Of a DNA stretch of 20,158 bases, positions 1,083 through 11,385 are shown piece by piece (the stretch's first letter is position 1; the number at the start of each line of letters is the position of its first letter). The notes beneath the pieces were generated by a model, which saw only the letters and a list, made by a program, of their open reading frames with translations, was not told where the DNA came from and searched no databases. The position numbers were made by a program, and so were the translations under genes. Source of the DNA: a virus; IMG/VR virus record IMGVR_UViG_3300030090_006528, positions 1 through 20,158 of that record; one strand, written 5' to 3'.

Positions 1083-1083
<1 letters not shown>

Positions 1084-1802
1084 TATATTGCCTCCTTATC
1101 TGTTAACCTTAATTTATTTTCAATTTCGTATGAACTTCTCATACATGATATTCCTAATTGTTCCTTAATCATTTCCGGTGTTGTACATGACTGATTAAAA
1201 CTTGCAAAATCTGTTTTACTTGGGAATCTACCACATCCAGCAAATAAACAACCAAATGCATTTGAAAGATAATCAGCAGCTGCATAATCACATTTTTTAA
1301 TCATATCACATCCTGGCCTAAAAGATTTTGCAGCCTCAATTCCCATATCAATCATTTTCTTTCTTAATAGCCAATGTAAACCTACAATAAATTCTTCCTC
1401 ACAAAACTTTAATCTTCTCATCATTTGTCCTCTTAATGAACCTATATTTTGTTCAACAGTATATGTACATTCTCTTGACATAAGATTAAATAATTCTGGA
1501 TTTTTCTTTTCTGCGTTTCTGTGCTTTTCCAGTTCAGATAGCGTTTTTATGGTTTTATCGCAAAAGTCTGAGTTTTTCTGCATTAATTCATATATCTGAG
1601 TATAGACAACATATACAGGATTAGGATTCACCTCATAGTTTAGGAATTTAATTCCAACCCTAGCTCTTGAATGTTGGTCAAATTGGCAAATTGGAGTACC
1701 TTTTATTTGATATGTTATCATACCAGATGCCTCATGCCAATTTAATATATCTACCTCAAGGTTTTTTACACCATATTTTATTTCAATACCATTAATTTTC
1801 AT
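1083..1802 (-). CDS. Divergent ThyX-like protein, second of an adjacent pair (tentative)
   Basis: 239 residues with a Cys-rich C-terminal third. By eye, residues 29-51 (ITYQIKGTPICQ, then DQHSRARVG) match the ThyX segment FRIKxP...RHRIAS, with RAR in place of the RHR flavin/dUMP motif. Residues 109-133 (SRECTYTVEQNIGSLRGQM and following) resemble the ThyX LPxxxYT...N.RSLxxFL helix. The canonical SxRY and LR...AQxEI signatures are not obvious. Cysteines at about 165, 171, 185, 190, 206 and 220 could bind metal or be redox active; ThyX proteins normally lack such a cluster. Start: an upstream ATG at 1838 exists, but the ATG at 1802 follows AAAAGG at good spacing and overlaps the previous stop by 11 bases, so I use it. 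It could be a partner subunit of the neighbouring ThyX-like protein. The family assignment is a hand alignment and uncertain. Confidence 0.6.
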
Positions 1803-2613
1803 AGAATAACCTTTTATCTTTTTCATCAAGATTATCAAATTTATAATCTCTTATTTTATCTAATATAGCATCTGTGTCATTAAATATTACATCAAGGTAT
1901 AGACCAATGAATGGAAATTTATTTTTTACCTCCTCAACCAAAACCTTATATAATTCTGCAAGTGACCTTTCCTTTATATTATCACCAAATTTTCCAGATG
2001 CATTAAAACCTCTCATCGATACAAGAGATAATAAATTTTGTCCAAAGTGATATGAATGCTGATAGCTTTGTGGTAGGAATGTTCTACCTGATTGCCAACT
2101 TGACTGATCCTCATTTAATACATCTGCATATATTTGTTTTAATTCATTAAATGTATTCTTTTCTGCATCAGAAAGTTTTCTATCTCCTACAGTAATAATA
2201 TCTACATCAGATTTATTATTATCACGGCAACCAATACTCATAAAACTTGTAAAAGGTGTTTGTGTATGATAATCAAATAACCATCTTGGTACACCTCTTA
2301 CACGAAATATAAATTGTACCATTTCTCTTGCCTGAGGTAATGTATTATGAGTTAATACTGCCTTAACGACCTCGAATTTTCCTTCTGGTGATGTTATGGG
2401 CCATTTTTGCTCAAATTTATTATCACCCCAAGTAGATGTACTTGTGACAAACATTGATTTGTAGGGATTTGTCATGTTATCCTCCAACGTAACCTCGACC
2501 TCATCGCTCATATTATGAAATTCGGTAACAACTGGTGGCCTTTCCTCTGGTAGAGTTCCCATGACCTTTCGTAGGTTTTCTACGACCTCATAACTTAATT
2601 TTTGTTCTTCCAT
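1792..2613 (-). CDS. Divergent ThyX-like (flavin-dependent thymidylate synthase family) protein
   Basis: 273 residues. The middle and C-terminal parts align by eye with ThyX. FIFRVRGVPRWLF (101-113) corresponds to the strand before the RHR motif. TSFMSIGCR (122-130) corresponds to ASYxExSxR. SGRTFLPQSYQHSYHFGQN (175-193) corresponds to ARxxLPxxxYTxxxxTxN, and SLAELYKVLVEEVKNKFP to the C-terminal helix. The signature arginines are not conserved: RHR is replaced by QTP-like residues, and the LRxxxxAQxEI dUMP-binding motif by FNASGKFGDNI. The N-terminal 50 residues are extra compared with ordinary ThyX (about 220-250 residues). The start uses AAAGG eleven bases upstream, slightly long. Between a kinase gene and another ThyX-like gene, it probably belongs to pyrimidine deoxynucleotide metabolism. 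Loss of key residues suggests a changed substrate or a structural role in a heteromer. Fold assignment likely, activity unknown. Confidence 0.72.
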   Translation of the reverse strand: MEEQKLSYEVVENLRKVMGTLPEERPPVVTEFHNMSDEVEVTLEDNMTNPYKSMFVTSTSTWGDNKFEQKWPITSPEGKFEVVKAVLTHNTLPQAREMVQFIFRVRGVPRWLFDYHTQTPFTSFMSIGCRDNNKSDVDIITVGDRKLSDAEKNTFNELKQIYADVLNEDQSSWQSGRTFLPQSYQHSYHFGQNLLSLVSMRGFNASGKFGDNIKERSLAELYKVLVEEVKNKFPFIGLYLDVIFNDTDAILDKIRDYKFDNLDEKDKRLFYEN

Positions 2614-2648: not shown

Positions 2649-3602
2649 TTAAATATAAAAATGTAACGAATCAAATTTTATATTTATTTTAATTTTGTCA
2701 ACCTCACAACATTTATCAAACCATATTTTTACCATTTTACATATTGATATAAAATCATGATTAAATAACATAATATTCGATGACCTAAAATTTACATTAA
2801 CATGTAATGTATCACCTCTAAATAGCATATGAACATATGATAGACATTCATCATCTGTAAATACAAATCTTCTACTATCAGACATTTGTTTTTTGCCATA
2901 ATATCCTGAAAGTTCTGATTCTATCTTTTTTGTAAATTTTGCAAGTTGAAATTTATAACTATCTATTTCCAATTGTTCATAGTCATTAATATTTTCCAGG
3001 CCTGTATATAGGTCCTTTGATGCCCAATTCTTAATTTGGCCAGATGTTAGGTCAAAATCCATTTTATAATTTATAAGCTCCTTAGTGCCCATATGTTCAC
3101 TACCAAACTCTTGTAGTGCCGTAATTGCAGTTCCAATTTGATGTTCTGGTCCTAGTAGAAAATCATTATACATTTCAAGTATTCCATTAATTCTATCTGC
3201 TATTTCATTTGGTTTATCTTTTGCATTAATTATCCAAAAGTTTCTGTGTTTTGCAAACTTAAGAGAAAACTCCTTATATAGCTTTGCAACATTTTTTATT
3301 GATTCCCAATTTTGAAATTCATCACCTCTTTCTGAATACCTATTAAATAACTCTACCTCATCTATGTCAAAGTAGAATACTATATTATCATTTAGATATG
3401 ATATAAATTCTCTTTGTCTTTCATAAAAGTTGTTAAATCTGCCATTAAGTTTACCGTAAACCAATATTGACATCAGGCCTCTATCGTTTAATAATACGTC
3501 AAAATCGTTAGCAGATTGTATTTTTTTCCATATCTTTTGATATTGAGTTGTTTTACCTGAGCAGTCAGGTCCTTCAAATACTAATTGTAGTCTTTTATTC
3601 AT
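2649..3602 (-). CDS. P-loop deoxynucleoside monophosphate kinase fused to a ThyA-like domain
   Basis: 317 residues from the ATG at 3602. Residues 1-145 are a thymidylate-kinase-type domain: P-loop GPDCSGKTT (11-19), NDRGL at 39-43 matching the DRY/DR motif, and a lid-like RYSERGDEF. Residues 150-317 resemble thymidylate synthase/dCMP hydroxymethylase: MGTKELINYKMDFDLTSG like GTxxxxGxxMRFdL, SDSRR (241-245) like the phosphate-binding double Arg, Cys253, then exactly 20 residues on Arg273-Ser274 (the E. coli Cys146 to Arg166-Ser167 spacing), Asp283 near the Asn177 position, and HFY at 314-316 like H207-x-Y209. The domain is compact (about 165 versus 264 residues) and lacks much of the folate-binding region. 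In T4 dCMP hydroxymethylase the Asn177 position is Asp, so a cytosine substrate is conceivable. The start overlaps the polymerase stop (ATGAATAA) with AAAGG upstream; ATGs at 3605 and 3617 are less well placed. Confidence 0.78.
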   Translation of the reverse strand: MNKRLQLVFEGPDCSGKTTQYQKIWKKIQSANDFDVLLNDRGLMSILVYGKLNGRFNNFYERQREFISYLNDNIVFYFDIDEVELFNRYSERGDEFQNWESIKNVAKLYKEFSLKFAKHRNFWIINAKDKPNEIADRINGILEMYNDFLLGPEHQIGTAITALQEFGSEHMGTKELINYKMDFDLTSGQIKNWASKDLYTGLENINDYEQLEIDSYKFQLAKFTKKIESELSGYYGKKQMSDSRRFVFTDDECLSYVHMLFRGDTLHVNVNFRSSNIMLFNHDFISICKMVKIWFDKCCEVDKIKINIKFDSLHFYI

Positions 3603-5841
3603 CATTAAACCTTTCATAAATTTTATTTAGAAACATTGTTTCACTATCCTTAAACCTACCTAATGAAATTAATACCAATTCACCAGGTTGTATTTCCTCA
3701 AACTTTTTCATTTTATTTTGCCATATAAAAAAGTCCAATGAACCGTTGTCATCCTTTAACGTAGCAATACCCATTGGTTTGCCAGATGATTTACTTCTTT
3801 TTGCAATATATTTATCCAAAATACCAATACAATATATTCCCATTTTATTACCCATTTTCATTCTTACCTCACTTGGCAACATTGTATCTGCAAATTTGAA
3901 GTCACGTTCAACAAGTATTTGTACCATTTCCTTAATTGTGTCATTAATTAAATACTTTACATTTGTTGACATCGCACCATATTCAAATTGTTTTAATTCT
4001 GTAAAATTAAATTTTTGTTCCTCATATAGCGACTGTTTTTTCTTTGGTAGCCTACCTTTATGGAATTCATTAAATATTTCTACCTCCTCACCCCATGAAT
4101 CAAACGCACCAGCAAATATAAGGTTTTCAACCTTTGCTTTATTTTTAATTGTTGACCTATCCAAAAAGTCCTGAAAGTCATTGTATGGTGCATTTTCAAT
4201 TATACCATTTACATCATTTGGTGTTATGGTTTTTATTGCACCAAAACCAAAAAGAATCTTTTTGTCAACAATTGAAAATTTCCTTTGTGATGCATTTATA
4301 TTTGCACGTTCAACAGAAAAACCTAGTTTTTTGGTTACATTAATATGTTTCATCATATCTGTACCTGGTTCTGAATTGTCCAATATTACCTTCATATATT
4401 CAATAGGATAATTTGCCTTGAAATATCCACCCCAGTATGAAATTAATGAATATGATACAGAGTGTGCCTGATTAAATCCATAGGCAGCAAAAGCAGCACA
4501 TTTTTCAAATAGGTCAAGTGCATCAGATTCCTTAATATATTTTGATAAACCTGTAATAAATTTTTCCTTATACGCACCAATCTTTTTCTGCCTTTGTGCC
4601 ATTGATTCCCAATCTCGGTATTTTACAAGTACTTTTCTGAATTTATTAGATTCTGAATCTGTAAAGCCGGCAATAAGTGCAAGTTTCATAATTTGTTCCT
4701 GGTAGGTAATAATACCGTATGTTTCCTCCAATACAGTATTTAATGGTTCTGGCCACCTTTCATATTGACCTGAAAATTTACGTTTTGCATATTCTGTTGG
4801 CATACCTTCCATAAGTGGTCCTGGCCTTAATAATGCAGATACAGCAGATAATTCGGCAACAGAATCTGCCTTTACATCCTTAAGAATACCTTTTGCTGTA
4901 CCAGATTCAAATTGAAATATTGTATCAGTATCTGCAGTGTGAAATATTTTTTTGAATGTATATTCATCATCCAATGGAATGTCACTTAATTTCCAATTTA
5001 ATCCATGCCTTTTATTTACAAGGTCAAGTGTTGCACCTACAATTGATACATTTTTAAGGCCAAGTATATCAAACTTTACATAGCCCATATGTTTAAGACC
5101 ATAGGTACCAGTACCTTCCTCCCATGCAGAAGATATACCATCACCAATTTTATTTAATGCAATATTTTCATCAAGGTTTTCAGATGATATAATAACACCA
5201 GCTGGGTGTGTACCATAATTCCTAAGCATACCCCTAATTTTTTCTGCATAAAATTTAACCTTAGGATACTTTTTGAAATATTGTTTTAATTTATCAAAGT
5301 CCTCTGCCAATTCATCAAAAGTTTTCTTTTCAGTTGCATCACCTGCCTGAATTGTTTTTGTCATACCAAATGTATCCTTTGCAGGTACACCAAGTGCACC
5401 AGCGACATCCTGTATTACAGCTCTTGTTTTTGCAAGTTGATACACACCAATTTGTTTTACCTTTTCCTTGCCAAACCTTTCATATATATAATTTATCACC
5501 TTTTGTCTACCATGTCGGCATACATCCTGGTCAATATCAACAAGGTCAACATCACCATCAGTTATCATTTCTGGTTTTTTACCAGTATCAATTGGATTAT
5601 CCTCATATATATCCAACAACCAATACAAAAGACTATTTTGTTTATTGCCAGGTAATTTTTTACCCTTATTATCTGTTATAAACTTTTGTATGTCCTTGTA
5701 TTGATCGGGATAACGTGCTTGATAAAAATCAATTGCATCACATTCTTGTTGTAGCCAAGCAATATGCTCATCAAGACCTCTATCCCTAAGGATTTTTGAT
5801 GCATTGCTGAATATTTTATCTCCAATTAGTATTTTACTCAT
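3595..5841 (-). CDS. dnaE: DNA polymerase III alpha, C-terminal polypeptide (palm catalytic part, thumb/fingers, OB fold)
   Basis: 748 residues carrying the catalytic half of a C-family replicative polymerase. VDIDQD (101-106) matches the family PDxDxD pair, and VKFDILGL (Asp258) is the third metal-binding Asp; the 154-156 residue separation equals that in E. coli DnaE. Also visible: THPAGVIIS, FQFESGTAKG, LLRPGPLMEGM, YGIITYQEQIM, the fingers segment AAYGFNQAHSVSYSLISYW, a helix-hairpin-helix-like GFGAIKTIT region, and a C-terminal OB fold (MGIYCIGILDKY... GSLDFFIW... GELVLI). The first roughly 95 residues have no counterpart I recognise in ordinary DnaE. The ATG lies one base after the stop of the PHP-containing gene and has no good Shine-Dalgarno, so coupled translation is likely. 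It must assemble with that protein, because the GPGRGS dNTP-binding loop is encoded there. No tau-binding tail beyond the OB fold was recognised. Confidence 0.95.
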   Translation of the reverse strand: MSKILIGDKIFSNASKILRDRGLDEHIAWLQQECDAIDFYQARYPDQYKDIQKFITDNKGKKLPGNKQNSLLYWLLDIYEDNPIDTGKKPEMITDGDVDLVDIDQDVCRHGRQKVINYIYERFGKEKVKQIGVYQLAKTRAVIQDVAGALGVPAKDTFGMTKTIQAGDATEKKTFDELAEDFDKLKQYFKKYPKVKFYAEKIRGMLRNYGTHPAGVIISSENLDENIALNKIGDGISSAWEEGTGTYGLKHMGYVKFDILGLKNVSIVGATLDLVNKRHGLNWKLSDIPLDDEYTFKKIFHTADTDTIFQFESGTAKGILKDVKADSVAELSAVSALLRPGPLMEGMPTEYAKRKFSGQYERWPEPLNTVLEETYGIITYQEQIMKLALIAGFTDSESNKFRKVLVKYRDWESMAQRQKKIGAYKEKFITGLSKYIKESDALDLFEKCAAFAAYGFNQAHSVSYSLISYWGGYFKANYPIEYMKVILDNSEPGTDMMKHINVTKKLGFSVERANINASQRKFSIVDKKILFGFGAIKTITPNDVNGIIENAPYNDFQDFLDRSTIKNKAKVENLIFAGAFDSWGEEVEIFNEFHKGRLPKKKQSLYEEQKFNFTELKQFEYGAMSTNVKYLINDTIKEMVQILVERDFKFADTMLPSEVRMKMGNKMGIYCIGILDKYIAKRSKSSGKPMGIATLKDDNGSLDFFIWQNKMKKFEEIQPGELVLISLGRFKDSETMFLNKIYERFNDE

Positions 5842-5842
5842 A

Positions 5843-7126
5843 TTATATCATTTTTGGGAACGAAGCCTTATCTCTACCAAGGTCCAAAAACCTTTCAAAA
5901 ATTAAACCCCAATCCAGTGGATTTACCTCTGTTAAACCTATTACGTAAGCAATAAGGCTACCAGCAACCGAACCTCTACCTGGACCTATATATATTTTTT
6001 CCTTATTGCAATATTCAATTATGTCCTCAAGAATAAGAAAGTATCCAATGTAGTTCATTTTACGTAATACTGAATATTCGTATCTTATCCTTTCTTTTAC
6101 CTCATCTGATATGTCATTACCAAATCTGTATTTTAGGCCTTTTTTAATTTTTTCCTGAAATATAATTTGTTCGTCATCATATAGTTTTGGAAGTTTTACG
6201 TCAGCATCAAAATTAGTGTCCTTAACCATATCCAAAATTTTATGACAATTATTTGCAGACCTAATAAATACCTCCTCGGTAAAAAATTCATTTTTATGAT
6301 ACCTTTCCCATGATGCATGCATTTCATCATAATTTTTATAATATAGTTCTCTTGCATGATAACCTTTTAGATTTTCACAGTCGGCATGGTCGTCCTTATT
6401 TGACCTATCACGAATAGTTATAAGCATATCGTGTACCTCCTGGTCATCATAGCGAATATAGTGAGCGTCATTGGTCACAACTGTTTCTATATCAAGTTCT
6501 TGTGCAATTCTAACCAATTGTTTATTACAATCAATTTGTTCCTGCATTTGGTGAACTTGTAATTCTATAAAGTATTTGTCACCAAACCTATCCTTGTATT
6601 GCTTGGCAACACTTTTGGCCTCCTCGTAGTCACCATTCATTAAATGAAACGGTATTTCACCACCTAGACACGCAGATGTGATAACAAGACCCTCACCATA
6701 TTTGCTTAACATTTCAAAATCAGTTCTTGGTTTTGAATAAAATCCATTCATGTGTGCATCATTATTAATGCGAATAAGATTTTTAATTCCTTTATCATTA
6801 TATGCTAGGACAAGAAGGTGAAAATACTTTCTGTATTTTTGTTTGCCATCATCTGTTTTTCTTGAATCCTCATCCATGAATCTGTGGTTGTTGACATAAA
6901 CCTCACATCCAAATACAGGAGTGATACCTTCTTGTCTAGCATATTTCCATAACCTTGCCCAGGACGAAATAACACCGTGATCAGTTATTGCCAAATGACT
7001 AAGGTTATTTTCCTTACCAAAGTCAATTAATTCCTGCAATTTTGATAGTGCATCTCGAGTTGAAAATTCACTATGGCAATGTATTTGTACAAAGCCTTCC
7101 TTAACATCTTTTCTGGGTTTTATCAT
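5843..7126 (-). CDS. dnaE: DNA polymerase III alpha, N-terminal polypeptide (PHP domain plus start of palm)
   Basis: 427 residues. The PHP domain has most metal-ligand motifs: HCHSEFS (16-22), ITDHG (47-51), GCEVYV (73-78), the HLLVLAYND strand, SACLGGEIP (151-159) and TNDAHYI (218-224). It is followed by the first palm strands: NYIGYFLILEDII, GPGRGSVAGSLIAYVIGLT (381-399) and NPLDWGLIFERFLDLGR (402-418). It stops at ASFPKMI, exactly where an intact DnaE would read PDxDxD, so the catalytic aspartates are on the next gene. PHP in DnaE can be structural or a 3'-5' exonuclease; the retained ligands allow activity but do not prove it. There is no Shine-Dalgarno: a TATATT promoter element ends 6 bases upstream of the ATG, so the mRNA is probably leaderless. 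Start supported by homology, since the PHP HCHS normally lies about 15 residues in. Confidence 0.95.
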   Translation of the reverse strand: MIKPRKDVKEGFVQIHCHSEFSTRDALSKLQELIDFGKENNLSHLAITDHGVISSWARLWKYARQEGITPVFGCEVYVNNHRFMDEDSRKTDDGKQKYRKYFHLLVLAYNDKGIKNLIRINNDAHMNGFYSKPRTDFEMLSKYGEGLVITSACLGGEIPFHLMNGDYEEAKSVAKQYKDRFGDKYFIELQVHQMQEQIDCNKQLVRIAQELDIETVVTNDAHYIRYDDQEVHDMLITIRDRSNKDDHADCENLKGYHARELYYKNYDEMHASWERYHKNEFFTEEVFIRSANNCHKILDMVKDTNFDADVKLPKLYDDEQIIFQEKIKKGLKYRFGNDISDEVKERIRYEYSVLRKMNYIGYFLILEDIIEYCNKEKIYIGPGRGSVAGSLIAYVIGLTEVNPLDWGLIFERFLDLGRDKASFPKMI

Positions 7127-7818: not shown

Positions 7819-8172
7819 TTATGCACAATGGTTCATCCATTTTCCATAAAAATTAAGATATTTTTTCTCCAATTTACCAAATGTAAGTGTTTTGAAGTGT
7901 ACTGCTTCATAACTTTTATCTGGTAAATGAGCTGAAAGATAATTATTAATAAGGTTTTGTAAAGAAGTCACATTATGATTTTCTATTAAATCTGTAGGAA
8001 AACAAAACATGAATTCCTTTGTATTACTTTCATCTCTTTCCAAAATGTAACTCCAAAAATCATCTACATACATTCTAGATTCTATTTTTTTCTCTACTTG
8101 TGTTTCCCAAAATTTTATTTCAGCCTTTGCAGCTGGATTTTCATAGAAGCACGTCGTTAATTTTACTTTCAT
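7819..8172 (-). CDS. Hypothetical protein, 117 residues
   Basis: Not recognised. A small soluble protein with alternating charged helical segments (KAEIKFWETQVEKKIESRM, residues about 16-34), a central LQNLINNYLSAHLPD helix and an aromatic C-terminus (LEKKYLNFYGKWMNH). No signal peptide, membrane segment or metal motif. The ATG at 8172 lies inside the end of the dUTPase/HAD gene, a 32-base overlap, larger than the other overlaps here. Only a weak AAAG-type ribosome site precedes it. The open frame fills the space to the next promoter with no competing gene, supporting it as real. It is probably co-transcribed with the FAD oxidoreductase and the dUTPase/HAD fusion. Confidence 0.62.
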   Translation of the reverse strand: MKVKLTTCFYENPAAKAEIKFWETQVEKKIESRMYVDDFWSYILERDESNTKEFMFCFPTDLIENHNVTSLQNLINNYLSAHLPDKSYEAVHFKTLTFGKLEKKYLNFYGKWMNHCA

Positions 8173-9079
8173 AAGCTATTACTTTTACACCTTTATTAAT
8201 TTTTCTATTTAATGTTTCCTCAGTATAAAGACCATAATTAGGGTTTAGATATACCTCAAAACCACTGTCATCTAATTTGTTTGCATTGCCAATATCATCA
8301 TCCAAACAGAATGCAACCTGGTTGGGGTCAAAATTATTAATAATATATTTTTCCTTTTCCTCATCAAATACAATTGCATCATAACAAATTTCATTATCAT
8401 TAAGCCATTTAATTGTATCTGAATATATTCTAAAATACTTTTTATATGGCCTTGCTGTTAATAATACAACATTATATTTTTCACATGCATCCTTCATAAA
8501 CTCCTTTGCTCCATCCAATACATCCAGTGTTGCCTTAACACCACATGTCCTATATTCAGACTTTATTCTATACTGTTCCTTTTTATCAACCTTTGACTTA
8601 AAATCATTTAGGCTTTTATAGCCAGACCACTTTAGGAATCCACCAGGCCAATCTGCAAGTACACCATCAATATCAATAAATGCAATTTTTTTATCAGATG
8701 CCTTAATTTTTTTCATTACCTTTTCCTGGTTAAATTTTGCCTCAACAACTCTTGATTTATCCATAAATTTTTCGTATAAATCATCAACATTAAATCCATT
8801 TAGCTGGATTATTCCAAAAAGGTATTTTAGTACATCAACACATTCCTCTAATACATTATCATTTACATCTTCTGTCTTTTTTGATGTATGCATTTTCCAA
8901 TCAATTTCATCAAGTACCTCATATACCTCCTTTGATAATGCCAAAACATATTCCTTGTTCCATTTTATTTTTAATTCCTTATCTTTTACAACATCATCAA
9001 TTGTAAGACCATGCTTATCCTTAAAAAATTTTTCTGTAAAATCTTTTTGTATTCCAAATATTCTTTCTAATTTATCCAT
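8141..9079 (-). CDS. All-alpha dUTPase-like NTP pyrophosphatase fused to a HAD-family 5'-nucleotidase
   Basis: 312 residues in two domains. Residues 40-120 fit the dimeric dUTPase/MazG-type all-alpha fold: ALSKEVYEVLDEIDWKM (47-63) then NVLEECVDVLKYLFGIIQLNG (75-95), giving the paired ExxxE and ExxxD metal-binding helices, ending with the family-like YEKFMDKSRVVEAKF. Residues 131-300 are a HAD phosphatase: FIDIDGVLADWPGG (nucleophile Asp136, acid Asp138), VVLLTARP (motif II), and CLDDDIGNANKL with the motif IV aspartates. Expected chemistry is dUTP (or dCTP) to the monophosphate, and removal of a 5'-phosphate or other phosphoester by the HAD part. The start shares TAATG with the preceding stop and has GGAG upstream. 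Coupling these two activities in one chain is unusual; it could shape dNTP pools or remove host nucleotides. Domain calls are confident, substrates are inferred. Confidence 0.85.
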   Translation of the reverse strand: MDKLERIFGIQKDFTEKFFKDKHGLTIDDVVKDKELKIKWNKEYVLALSKEVYEVLDEIDWKMHTSKKTEDVNDNVLEECVDVLKYLFGIIQLNGFNVDDLYEKFMDKSRVVEAKFNQEKVMKKIKASDKKIAFIDIDGVLADWPGGFLKWSGYKSLNDFKSKVDKKEQYRIKSEYRTCGVKATLDVLDGAKEFMKDACEKYNVVLLTARPYKKYFRIYSDTIKWLNDNEICYDAIVFDEEKEKYIINNFDPNQVAFCLDDDIGNANKLDDSGFEVYLNPNYGLYTEETLNRKINKGVKVIAYESKINDVLL

Positions 9080-10047
9080 TACTTAAACTCCGGGTATGGT
9101 TTTCTATATTTATTTGTCCAATCAATTACTCTATCCAAAACTTCATTTGCCTTTATTTTATGATTCCATTGTGCAAATCTACCTAACATAAATACTCTGT
9201 CAAATCTATCAATGTCAATACTATTTTTTATCTGTATTGGCATACTTTCAAATTGATTCATTACAGGATATGGTGGTATAAAAGGATTAACAGATTCATA
9301 TACCATATAATCATTAAAATATGTTTTTCTTGTCCATCCTTCCTTATAACCATATACGTAATCAAAGCCAGACCTTTCACCCTTATTTGTTTGATAAAAA
9401 CATTTTGGTAGTGTTGTTAGGTCCAAGCCTTTTAATTCATCACCTTTCCAAATACCTCCCATTCCATTATAGTCTTTTGCCAATAATTTTAATGATAGTG
9501 TATTTATAATTGTTTCATATTCATAGCACATTGAAGGTCCTAAACCTTCCTTTGCATGTATGAAGCCTGATGGTACTATTTCTGTAACCTTTTGTCTTTT
9601 TAACTGTCCTCTATCCTTGTCGATTATTTTTAACAATGTTTGAAATAAAAATCTATAACTATATTCACCTAAATCATTTATTTCAAGGTGTTCTATTTCA
9701 TTTTTACCTTCAGATAGATAGCTTGATTCTGCATCGGATTTGCCTCTTGTTAGCTTTGTGTAGTTTTTCCTAAAACCTTTAGGTGGTATTGCCATTGCCA
9801 TACCGTCCTGTTCATATCCAACCTTTGCAACAACAGTTTTTATTTTATATCCAAATAAACCAGCATCATCCAATACACTTCTAACAAATTTTTCTGTGTT
9901 TTCTGTCCTTTGTATTAATCTAGGACCTGGTATGAATGGTAAATTTAGTTGACCTAATGGTTTTTCATCCAATACAGGAAATTCAGGAAAGTAATATCCT
10001 GCAATTAATCCAGCTGGACCAGCACCTATAATACAACCTTTATTCAT
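9079..10047 (-). CDS. FAD/NAD(P)-binding oxidoreductase (flavin amine-oxidase/UDP-galactopyranose-mutase-like)
   Basis: 322 residues from the ATG at 10047. A dinucleotide-binding GxGxxG starts at residue 8 (IIGAGPAGLIAGYYFPEF), and a C-terminal FMLGRFAQWNHKIKANEVLDRV matches the second FAD-contact segment of NAD(P)-binding Rossmann flavoproteins, where a G-R-F/Y precedes an aromatic residue. There is no signal peptide or membrane segment. Substrate unknown; the C-terminal pattern recalls UDP-galactopyranose mutase and related amine oxidases. The start was moved from 10062 because the earlier ATG overlaps the GAGGAG ribosome site, which is correctly spaced 7 bases before 10047. A TATATT promoter lies just upstream. 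First gene of a unit with the dUTPase/HAD fusion, so a role in nucleotide or DNA-base chemistry is possible but unproven; sugar modification is an equal alternative. Confidence 0.8.
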   Translation of the reverse strand: MNKGCIIGAGPAGLIAGYYFPEFPVLDEKPLGQLNLPFIPGPRLIQRTENTEKFVRSVLDDAGLFGYKIKTVVAKVGYEQDGMAMAIPPKGFRKNYTKLTRGKSDAESSYLSEGKNEIEHLEINDLGEYSYRFLFQTLLKIIDKDRGQLKRQKVTEIVPSGFIHAKEGLGPSMCYEYETIINTLSLKLLAKDYNGMGGIWKGDELKGLDLTTLPKCFYQTNKGERSGFDYVYGYKEGWTRKTYFNDYMVYESVNPFIPPYPVMNQFESMPIQIKNSIDIDRFDRVFMLGRFAQWNHKIKANEVLDRVIDWTNKYRKPYPEFK

Positions 10048-10067
10048 ATTTATTCTCCTCATGTGTT

Positions 10068-10102: not shown

Positions 10103-10498
10103 TTATACCTTTATCCATTTTCCATCTGTTTGCAATTGAAAAGAGCCTACATATACCTGATTCCACTCGTTAGGTCCTATTAAACTTAACCACAAACTTT
10201 TATCTTTTTTTTCATACATATGATATGTGTGCCCAACAATTGGTTGAAATGCGTATGATGATTCATATACCAACCTTGTCCAGTTATATTCCTGTATAAG
10301 TTTTTTATATTCCTGTCTAAGTTCATCTAATCTTGATTCAAAATAGTGATTAGCAGTAATTCCTGAACTTTTGTCTACACTAATTGGTTCAAAACCTGGT
10401 GCACCTACAGACGTTGGATAAGGTTTAATATTTGCATCAAACTTATCTAATTTATAGTCATAAACTATGTTATCCGGATATTTCTTTTTTATAGACAA
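10103..10498 (-). CDS. DUF2452 family protein, TTG start
   Basis: 131 residues with the pattern I know from DUF2452: VGAPGFEPISVDKS (31-44), a helical segment with RLDELRQEYKKLI, then the FQPIVGHTYHMYEK and LSLIGPNEW motifs and a final W. The family is widespread in bacteria and has no established function. No ATG is available before the conserved region: in this frame a TGA lies just upstream and only TTG at 10498 gives a full-length product. AGAGGTGAGAG upstream can serve as a ribosome site. The start overlaps the cysteine synthase stop by 10 bases, so translational coupling probably compensates for the weak start. Last gene of the presumed SSB-to-DUF2452 unit; a promoter follows at once for the next unit. 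Confidence 0.83.
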   Translation of the reverse strand: MSIKKKYPDNIVYDYKLDKFDANIKPYPTSVGAPGFEPISVDKSSGITANHYFESRLDELRQEYKKLIQEYNWTRLVYESSYAFQPIVGHTYHMYEKKDKSLWLSLIGPNEWNQVYVGSFQLQTDGKWIKV

Positions 10499-11385
10499 CT
10501 TAGATATCTCTCACCTCTATCACATAGTATTGTGATTGCCGTTTTTTTATTATTGTCATGCAAATATTGAAAAGCAGCAAATACATTTGCACCTGCACTT
10601 ATTCCTACAAATAAGCCATATCGCTGAGCCAAGTATTTTGCAACTGCTTTTGCACATTCTGTTTTAACTGTTTTTACCTTACTAATCTTTTTTAGGTCCA
10701 CCAAAAACTTACTACCATCACCTATACCTTGTATTCCATGCAAGCCAGGTTTTCCACCTGACATAACGGCTGATTCCTCTGGTTCAACTGCTATAGTTTC
10801 CATTCCTGGACATTGTTCGCTAAGGTATTTTCCTGCACCCATTATAGTTCCACCTGTGCCAGTTCCTGCTACAAATGCCTGCATCCACCCACAATCACTG
10901 TATTTGTGATTTCTTTGAAATTCTTTCCATATTTCAGGACCTGTTGTTTTATAATGTACCTCTATATTTAATTTATTATGAAATTGATTGCAATTAAAAT
11001 ATCCTTCAAGTTCTGATAGTTCATCTCTTACATCTATTGCTTCATCAAAATCTCCAGCACCAACCTCTATAAGTTCTGCACCATAAAATCTTAACATTTG
11101 CTTTCTTTCATTAGACATATTTTCAGGCATAACAATTTTCATTTTATATCCACGTTCTGCTGCTAACATTGCAAAGGCAATCCCTGTATTTCCAGAAGTT
11201 GCCTCTATTAGTGTATCACCTTTTTTTATAAGTCCATTTTGTTCTGCATTATTAATAATATACGTTGCCATTCTATCCTTTACGCTTCCACCTGGATTCA
11301 TAAATTCACATTTGCCCCATACTGTGTAACCTCCAAATCTAATTGGAATAAGTGGTGTATTACCCACGCAATCTGATAGTTTCAT
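10489..11385 (-). CDS. cysK: Cysteine synthase (O-acetylserine sulfhydrylase), PLP-dependent
   Basis: Forms cysteine from O-acetylserine and sulfide in the cytoplasm. 298 residues, slightly short of bacterial CysK (about 310-325), with every core motif: VGNTPL, NPGGSVKDR with the PLP lysine at 36, the substrate loop EATSGNTG (62-68), the phosphate-binding GTGTGGT (174-180), HGIQGIGDG and the serine loop GISAGAN. It ends CDRGERYLS, as in the family. It looks active. The start overlaps the preceding small Zn-ribbon gene by ATGA. Phage-borne cysteine synthase is unusual: possible roles are supplying cysteine or sulfide for FeS and redox proteins during infection, or binding a host partner as CysK does with several proteins. 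The related cystathionine beta-synthase type or O-phosphoserine-using variants cannot be excluded. Confidence 0.94.
   Translation of the reverse strand: MKLSDCVGNTPLIPIRFGGYTVWGKCEFMNPGGSVKDRMATYIINNAEQNGLIKKGDTLIEATSGNTGIAFAMLAAERGYKMKIVMPENMSNERKQMLRFYGAELIEVGAGDFDEAIDVRDELSELEGYFNCNQFHNKLNIEVHYKTTGPEIWKEFQRNHKYSDCGWMQAFVAGTGTGGTIMGAGKYLSEQCPGMETIAVEPEESAVMSGGKPGLHGIQGIGDGSKFLVDLKKISKVKTVKTECAKAVAKYLAQRYGLFVGISAGANVFAAFQYLHDNNKKTAITILCDRGERYLSCL

Follow-up and report, generated by a model that had tools for sequence, protein, structure and literature searches.

Do two neighbouring, strongly diverged ThyX-like genes of an uncultured virus encode two separate proteins, or the two halves of a single enzyme? 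The question is raised by a stretch of 20,158 nucleotides (hereafter the window), which is part of a 52,047-base (52-kb) uncultured virus record (IMG/VR record IMGVR_UViG_3300030090_006528). A sequence-only reading of the window had claimed an adjacent pair of diverged ThyX-like genes at positions 1083-2613, and this held: both genes lie there, on the minus strand. Gene A (1792-2613, minus strand) encodes a ThyX-fold subunit of 273 aa and gene B (1083-1802, minus strand) one of 239 aa. ThyX itself is a homotetramer, with its sites located between three subunits. Our answer, which we consider likely, is that A and B arose as halves of a ThyX-type enzyme through duplication and partition, and function as an obligate A:B pair. 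Homology, fold, strict pairing, an exact partition of residues and the nesting of both proteins in an undivided family are shown below; the complex, FAD binding, chemistry and substrate are inferred, and all of the evidence is computational.

Gene layout and pairing of A and B

The start of gene B was placed at the ATG at 1802 because the conserved sequence starts there; an in-frame TTG at 1838, giving 1083-1838, is a less likely alternative. The start of B thus lies over the end of A with an overlap of 11 bases, the pattern expected for translationally coupled genes. On the minus strand the window carries, in order, two adjacent DNA polymerase III alpha genes, a kinase gene with a ThyA-like tail, A, B, groES and groEL, and the order A - B - groES is preserved in nearly all close relatives. 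The DNA polymerase III alpha genes (3595-5841 and 5843-7126, both minus strand) are divided into a PHP/N-terminal part and a finger/C-terminal part, and a relative (L037:717-4205) has the undivided form as a single ORF of 1162 aa. The window also holds a phage-borne cysteine synthase (cysKM, E 7e-94; 10489-11385, minus strand), and the same cysteine synthase is found in another relative (L011:10849-11739) at 74% identity to the window copy.

IMG/VR was scanned with motifs of A and, separately, with motifs of B. The two genes were found adjacent and on the same strand in 37 contigs, and one occurred without its partner only where the contig stops (L038, L058 and L071), so that the separate occurrence which would have spoken against a heteromer was not seen except at contig ends. 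Identities for A and B range from 49 to 87% over 24-28 contigs, with long invariant blocks, and their conservation is far beyond chance. IMG/VR contigs contain near-identical copies, hence the counts are not independent, and the completeness of the virus records is unknown, which makes absences weak evidence.

Searches outside this family returned little. Against 50,697 phage records (tblastn), no match was obtained with A and B of the window, nor with a divergent copy of B or a ThyA half (described below), and the undivided proteins gave weak canonical ThyX matches at most and otherwise none. Two pattern scans of the contigs of species genomes returned no cellular relatives, with patterns that reach fairly close relatives only. 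In the open-access literature searched, with subscription papers outside the scope, we found no report of a split or heteromeric ThyX. The hosts of these viruses are bacteria, and the split ThyX-type pair is known here from uncultured viruses.

Kinship to ThyX and the undivided relatives

Sequence comparison connects A to ThyX more readily than B. The window copy of A scores 19.2 bits (E 0.0011) against Pfam PF02511 Thy1, just under the curated cut-off of 24.8, and most of its relatives exceed that cut-off with 26-32 bits; in profile-profile comparison A matches the canonical ThyX profile at E 6e-6. B has no family match by sequence and no direct match to any ThyX profile. Its profile-profile comparisons fail both against canonical ThyX (E 0.039, probability 1%) and against A (E 0.12). 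Sequence searches of the PDB gave no ThyX match and nothing meaningful for A and its profile, and only chance matches for B and its profile. As the direct comparisons of B fail, its kinship to ThyX rests on a bridge of undivided relatives and on the predicted fold.

AlphaFold2 models of A and B reached pLDDT values of 84.4 and 88.9, respectively, from an input alignment that included one undivided sequence row. The best match (VIA) of the A model was ThyX 3hzg_A (Z 15.6, 202 residues, 3.0 Å; next non-ThyX Z 2.8), and that of the B model was ThyX 3fnn (Z 15.0, 146 residues, 2.4 Å; next non-ThyX Z 4.7). The top structural chains were all ThyX for both proteins, and Foldseek agrees. A and B are therefore predicted by their models to share the ThyX fold, common to Thermotoga TM0449 and M. 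tuberculosis ThyX, and no unrelated fold, which would have refuted the pair, was seen. In structure alignments the identity to ThyX is about 10-17%. The best Foldseek match of A was PolB, the UMP/dUMP methylase of Streptomyces cacaoi (PDB 4p5a, 4p5b), which has the ThyX fold as well and an altered substrate range. Unlike the viral proteins, PolB is bacterial, and it is not known to occur as a paralogous pair.

The bridge was provided by a distant A match (L041), a single protein of 322 aa that matches the A profile at 6e-40, the B profile at 6e-17 and Pfam Thy1 at 3.5e-18 (66.5 bits). Two further scans built on it brought undivided genes to about 23 contigs. These relatives match the A profile (to 4e-62) as well as the B profile (to 1e-57), and every member tested, including eight beyond the first, passes the Pfam Thy1 cut-off. 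The undivided proteins combine the N-terminal part of A, the Cys-rich extension of B and an A-like tail, and they thereby bridge A, B and canonical ThyX; we regard them as the decisive evidence for kinship. Undivided and split forms were seen together in no contig. Like the undivided relatives and B, Thermus thermophilus Thy1 (PDB 6j61) has an extra part at its C-terminus, but it differs from the pair in being a single gene; the likeness noted here is the presence of an extension. One undivided gene (L098:5001-6446, plus strand) holds an in-frame insert resembling a small intein, which begins CLMPGTKI and ends HN before a Cys, at the conserved KF|C-E motif.

In the tree, A forms one clade and B forms another (100/100 each), and both are nested in the undivided clade. 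Whether A and B are sister groups was neither demonstrated nor rejected (p-AU 0.31), and owing to long branches the exact origin of the two proteins is unsure.

Partition of the active site

The two proteins have departed from the ThyX framework in different places. As the sequence-only reading had claimed, A has lost the RHR motif and the LRxxxxAQxEI motif: FDYHTQTPF stands in place of the RHR region and the R174-AQ-E-I motif is missing. A retains the N-terminal helical part and has lost the C-terminal extension and R199. The claim that B keeps an RxR and a cysteine-rich end also held. B has DQHSRARVG, with RxR retained as RAR, and its C-terminal part contains invariant cysteines at 165, 171, 185, 190 and 206; it lacks the N-terminal helical part and the dUMP-side arginines, and retains the Cys-rich C-terminal extension.

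Active-site residues were tabulated from an alignment of 18 undivided proteins, 21 A, 21 B and five canonical phage ThyX, numbered after M. tuberculosis (Mtb) ThyX except for Q75, which follows Thermotoga (TmQ75). R87, R107 and R172 are present in all 18 undivided and all 21 A proteins and in 0/21 B, and TmQ75, R95, R97 and R199 are present in all 18 undivided and all 21 B proteins and in 0/21 A. All seven positions are present in the canonical phage ThyX and in the undivided proteins; the full set of R87, R95, R97, R107, R172 and R199 occurs in one protein in 18/18 undivided relatives and in neither A nor B alone. Jointly, A and B supply all seven aligned residues, so the complementary differences that had been proposed held exactly. 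In the window, R110, R130 and R177 of A correspond to Mtb R87, R107 and R172; Q43 and R46-A-R48 of B correspond to TmQ75 and the RHR region, and R130 of B to Mtb R199. Two of the columns, R172 for B and R199 for A, fall within hard-to-align stretches, and a partition of seven positions does not amount to seven independent events.

The split coincides with subunit boundaries known from structures. Each dUMP in Mtb ThyX is surrounded by residues of different subunits, with one contributing the RHR motif and R199 and another R87, S105 and R107 (PMC6514825), and published structures put the A-set and the B-set on different subunits for five of the seven residues. Of the remaining two, R172 (Thermotoga R147) faces the nucleotide in ThyX structures and Q75 the flavin. 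Because of the subunit origin of the residues retained, A is expected to form the nucleotide (dUMP) side, and B the flavin side, of composite sites. The pair thus shares with ThyX the dUMP-side arginines (in A), the RxR and R199 (in B) and active sites expected at subunit interfaces; it differs in having two paralogous genes instead of one, in the Cys-rich C-terminal extension and in a number of substitutions. RHR is missing in A and reads RAR in B and in 16/18 undivided relatives, with its His altered throughout the split and undivided family. In all undivided and A proteins Ser105 is changed to Gly and the Tyr108 lid to Asp, and Arg190 of Mtb ThyX, which is an FAD contact from a further subunit, is lost across the whole family. 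With Arg190 lost and the RHR His replaced by Ala, FAD binding by A:B is not assured. The family-wide changes (RHR His to Ala, Ser105 to Gly, Tyr108 to Asp) suggest an altered chemistry, an inference drawn from sequence alone.

The heteromer that had been proposed for the pair is well supported by fold, strict pairing and residue partition, with complex formation itself inferred. In the history that we propose, a single-gene phage ancestor would have had a ThyX core preceded by an N-terminal helical part and followed by a Cys-rich C-terminal extension. Following the duplication, one copy (A) would have shed this extension together with R199 and the RHR region, and the other (B) the N-terminal part and the nucleotide-side arginines. 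Since a homomer of either would be without a complete site, A and B would have to assemble together, probably as A2B2 by analogy with the ThyX homotetramer. FAD at each site would be held by B, whose RAR segment and R130 would also make contact with the nucleotide; R110, R130 and R177 of A would serve to bind the nucleotide. The chemistry is expected to be that of ThyX, with a folate-derived one-carbon unit passed via flavin N5 to a pyrimidine deoxynucleoside monophosphate at its C5.

Neighbouring genes and the question of substrate

The kinase gene upstream of A (2649-3617, minus strand; 322 aa) has a thymidylate-kinase-like N-terminal part (Pfam E 3e-9) and ends in a ThyA-family C-terminal half (2652-3083, minus strand) with Cys nucleophile, RS, cytosine-type Asp and SLHxY. 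The possibility that this tail is peculiar to the kinase of the window was rejected, the ThyA half being a separate gene in most relatives. Such a truncated protein is encoded in 23/32 contigs (14/15 with the split pair, 9/17 with the undivided form), and a further copy, a weak match, lies beside the first undivided gene, L041. Stand-alone ThyA halves are mostly 140-195 aa long and their PDB profile matches begin after TS residue ~110. By profile the ThyA half is closest to T4 dCMP hydroxymethylase (gp42; E 1.6e-4), with which it shares the equivalents of SRx, Cys148, RS, Asp179 and SLHxY. It differs in comprising only the C-terminal ~165 residues, without the N-terminal part bearing the folate-activating Glu (E58 in E. 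coli TS, E60 in T4). The Cys nucleophile, phosphate-site Arg, RS and nucleotide-site His are kept in 33/34 sequences, and Asp occupies the T4 position 179, Asn in TS, again in 33/34; in characterised enzymes this Asp marks cytosine substrates (PMC5175136, PMC6400193). Because TS and ThyX are reported to be anticorrelated in jumbo phages (PMC7824862), it is unusual to find a ThyX-type enzyme combined with a ThyA fragment.

A canonical ThyX with RHR and QES(T/Q)RY motifs accompanies this family in five contigs, four with the undivided form (G013, G015, G022, G024) and one with the split pair (G030); these second genes lie at L153 380-1084, L154 335-1036 (minus strand), L155 412-1599 (minus strand), L156 274-942 (minus strand) and L157 371-973. 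One contig (that of L129) bears an undivided ThyX-type gene, a canonical ThyX and two different ThyA-family half-type proteins close together (L151 1228-1872 and 2734-3315, minus strand).

Further genes are frequently linked. A dUTPase_2/MazG-like pyrophosphatase joined in one gene to a 5'-nucleotidase-like (NT5C) domain (8141-9079, minus strand) belongs to a fusion family found near 22/29 split or undivided loci. The putative FAD-binding protein beside it (9079-10062, minus strand), in which a GAGPAGL motif is seen directly and no Pfam match was found, belongs to a family near 13/29 loci. Its relatives (L035, L036, L037, L088-L091, L097, L099 and L128) often adjoin the MazG-nucleotidase gene. 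An SDR-type protein that starts like FITGESG and resembles dTDP-rhamnose reductases (for example L024:1288-2295 and L035:4539-5498) also lies near the ThyX-type genes at 13/29 loci. One split-pair contig (that of L042), 1/32, encodes a Nol-like carbamoyltransferase (L158:2024-3931, minus strand; phrog_1601 E 4e-112), of a kind for which action on 5-hydroxymethylcytosine has been reported (PMC8670742). The neighbours point to a modified pyrimidine, perhaps a cytosine, as a possibility and not as proof.

It remains possible that A:B is an ordinary thymidylate synthase converting dUMP to dTMP, its sequence altered only by drift and subunit specialisation. For this speak the seven active-site positions retained between the two proteins, the adjoining thymidylate-kinase-like gene, and the lack of any canonical thyX or full-length thyA found in the 52-kb record of the window or in most relatives. 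Against it stand the altered His, Ser105 and Tyr108 positions and the supply of dTMP that can come from hosts; moreover, in the five contigs named above the family is unlikely to serve for ordinary dTMP synthesis, because a canonical RHR ThyX is encoded there as well. The altered substrate suggested from the outset accordingly has only indirect support, from those five contigs, one of them with the split pair, and the activity is inferred. A quite different explanation is that A and B have no catalytic role and are degenerate paralogues of ThyX serving as regulatory or nucleotide-binding proteins. On its own each protein is missing half of the site, and the family as a whole has lost Arg190, Tyr108 and His96. 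We consider this explanation unlikely: the loss is non-random, each of the seven residues lost by one protein being invariant in the other (21 sequences each), and the single-gene relatives retain all seven. Such a pattern is consistent with selection still acting on a single active site shared by the two proteins.

A narrower version of our preferred explanation gives the ThyX-type enzyme, in its split or its single-gene form, the C5 position of a cytosine deoxynucleotide as its target (dCMP to methyl or hydroxymethyl) and places it in a phage modified-base pathway together with the kinase, the pyrophosphatase-nucleotidase and the ThyA half. It draws on the frequency of the ThyA half, above all beside the split pair, on its nearness to T4 dCMP hydroxymethylase with the cytosine-type Asp, on the separate canonical ThyX genes and on the carbamoyltransferase. 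On the other side, the specificity is inferred from neighbours only, the ThyA half could work alone, the carbamoyltransferase is confined to a single contig, and several undivided-form contigs are without a detected ThyA half (contigs may be incomplete). We think the evidence falls short of favouring this reading.

For the partitioned ThyX-type enzyme that we prefer, the product is likely to be something other than ordinary dTMP, as inferred from the above, and a cytosine nucleotide, perhaps dCMP, is our leading guess for the substrate, held with more doubt than confidence. A bolder reading, no more than possible, is that a phage ThyX became a flavin-dependent cytosine-deoxynucleotide enzyme, was later split into an obligate two-gene heteromer and works with the truncated cytosine-type ThyA protein; if true, two unrelated thymidylate synthase folds would cooperate in one modified-base pathway. 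In these viruses the roles of identical ThyX subunits have apparently been separated into two genes, with the undivided form persisting in related viruses, and the natural split provides a test of the standing structural model by which residues are assigned to subunits in ThyX. Among these uncultured viruses, some have a canonical ThyX beside the family and most have a cytosine-type ThyA fragment; this coexistence suggests an uncharacterised nucleotide modification.
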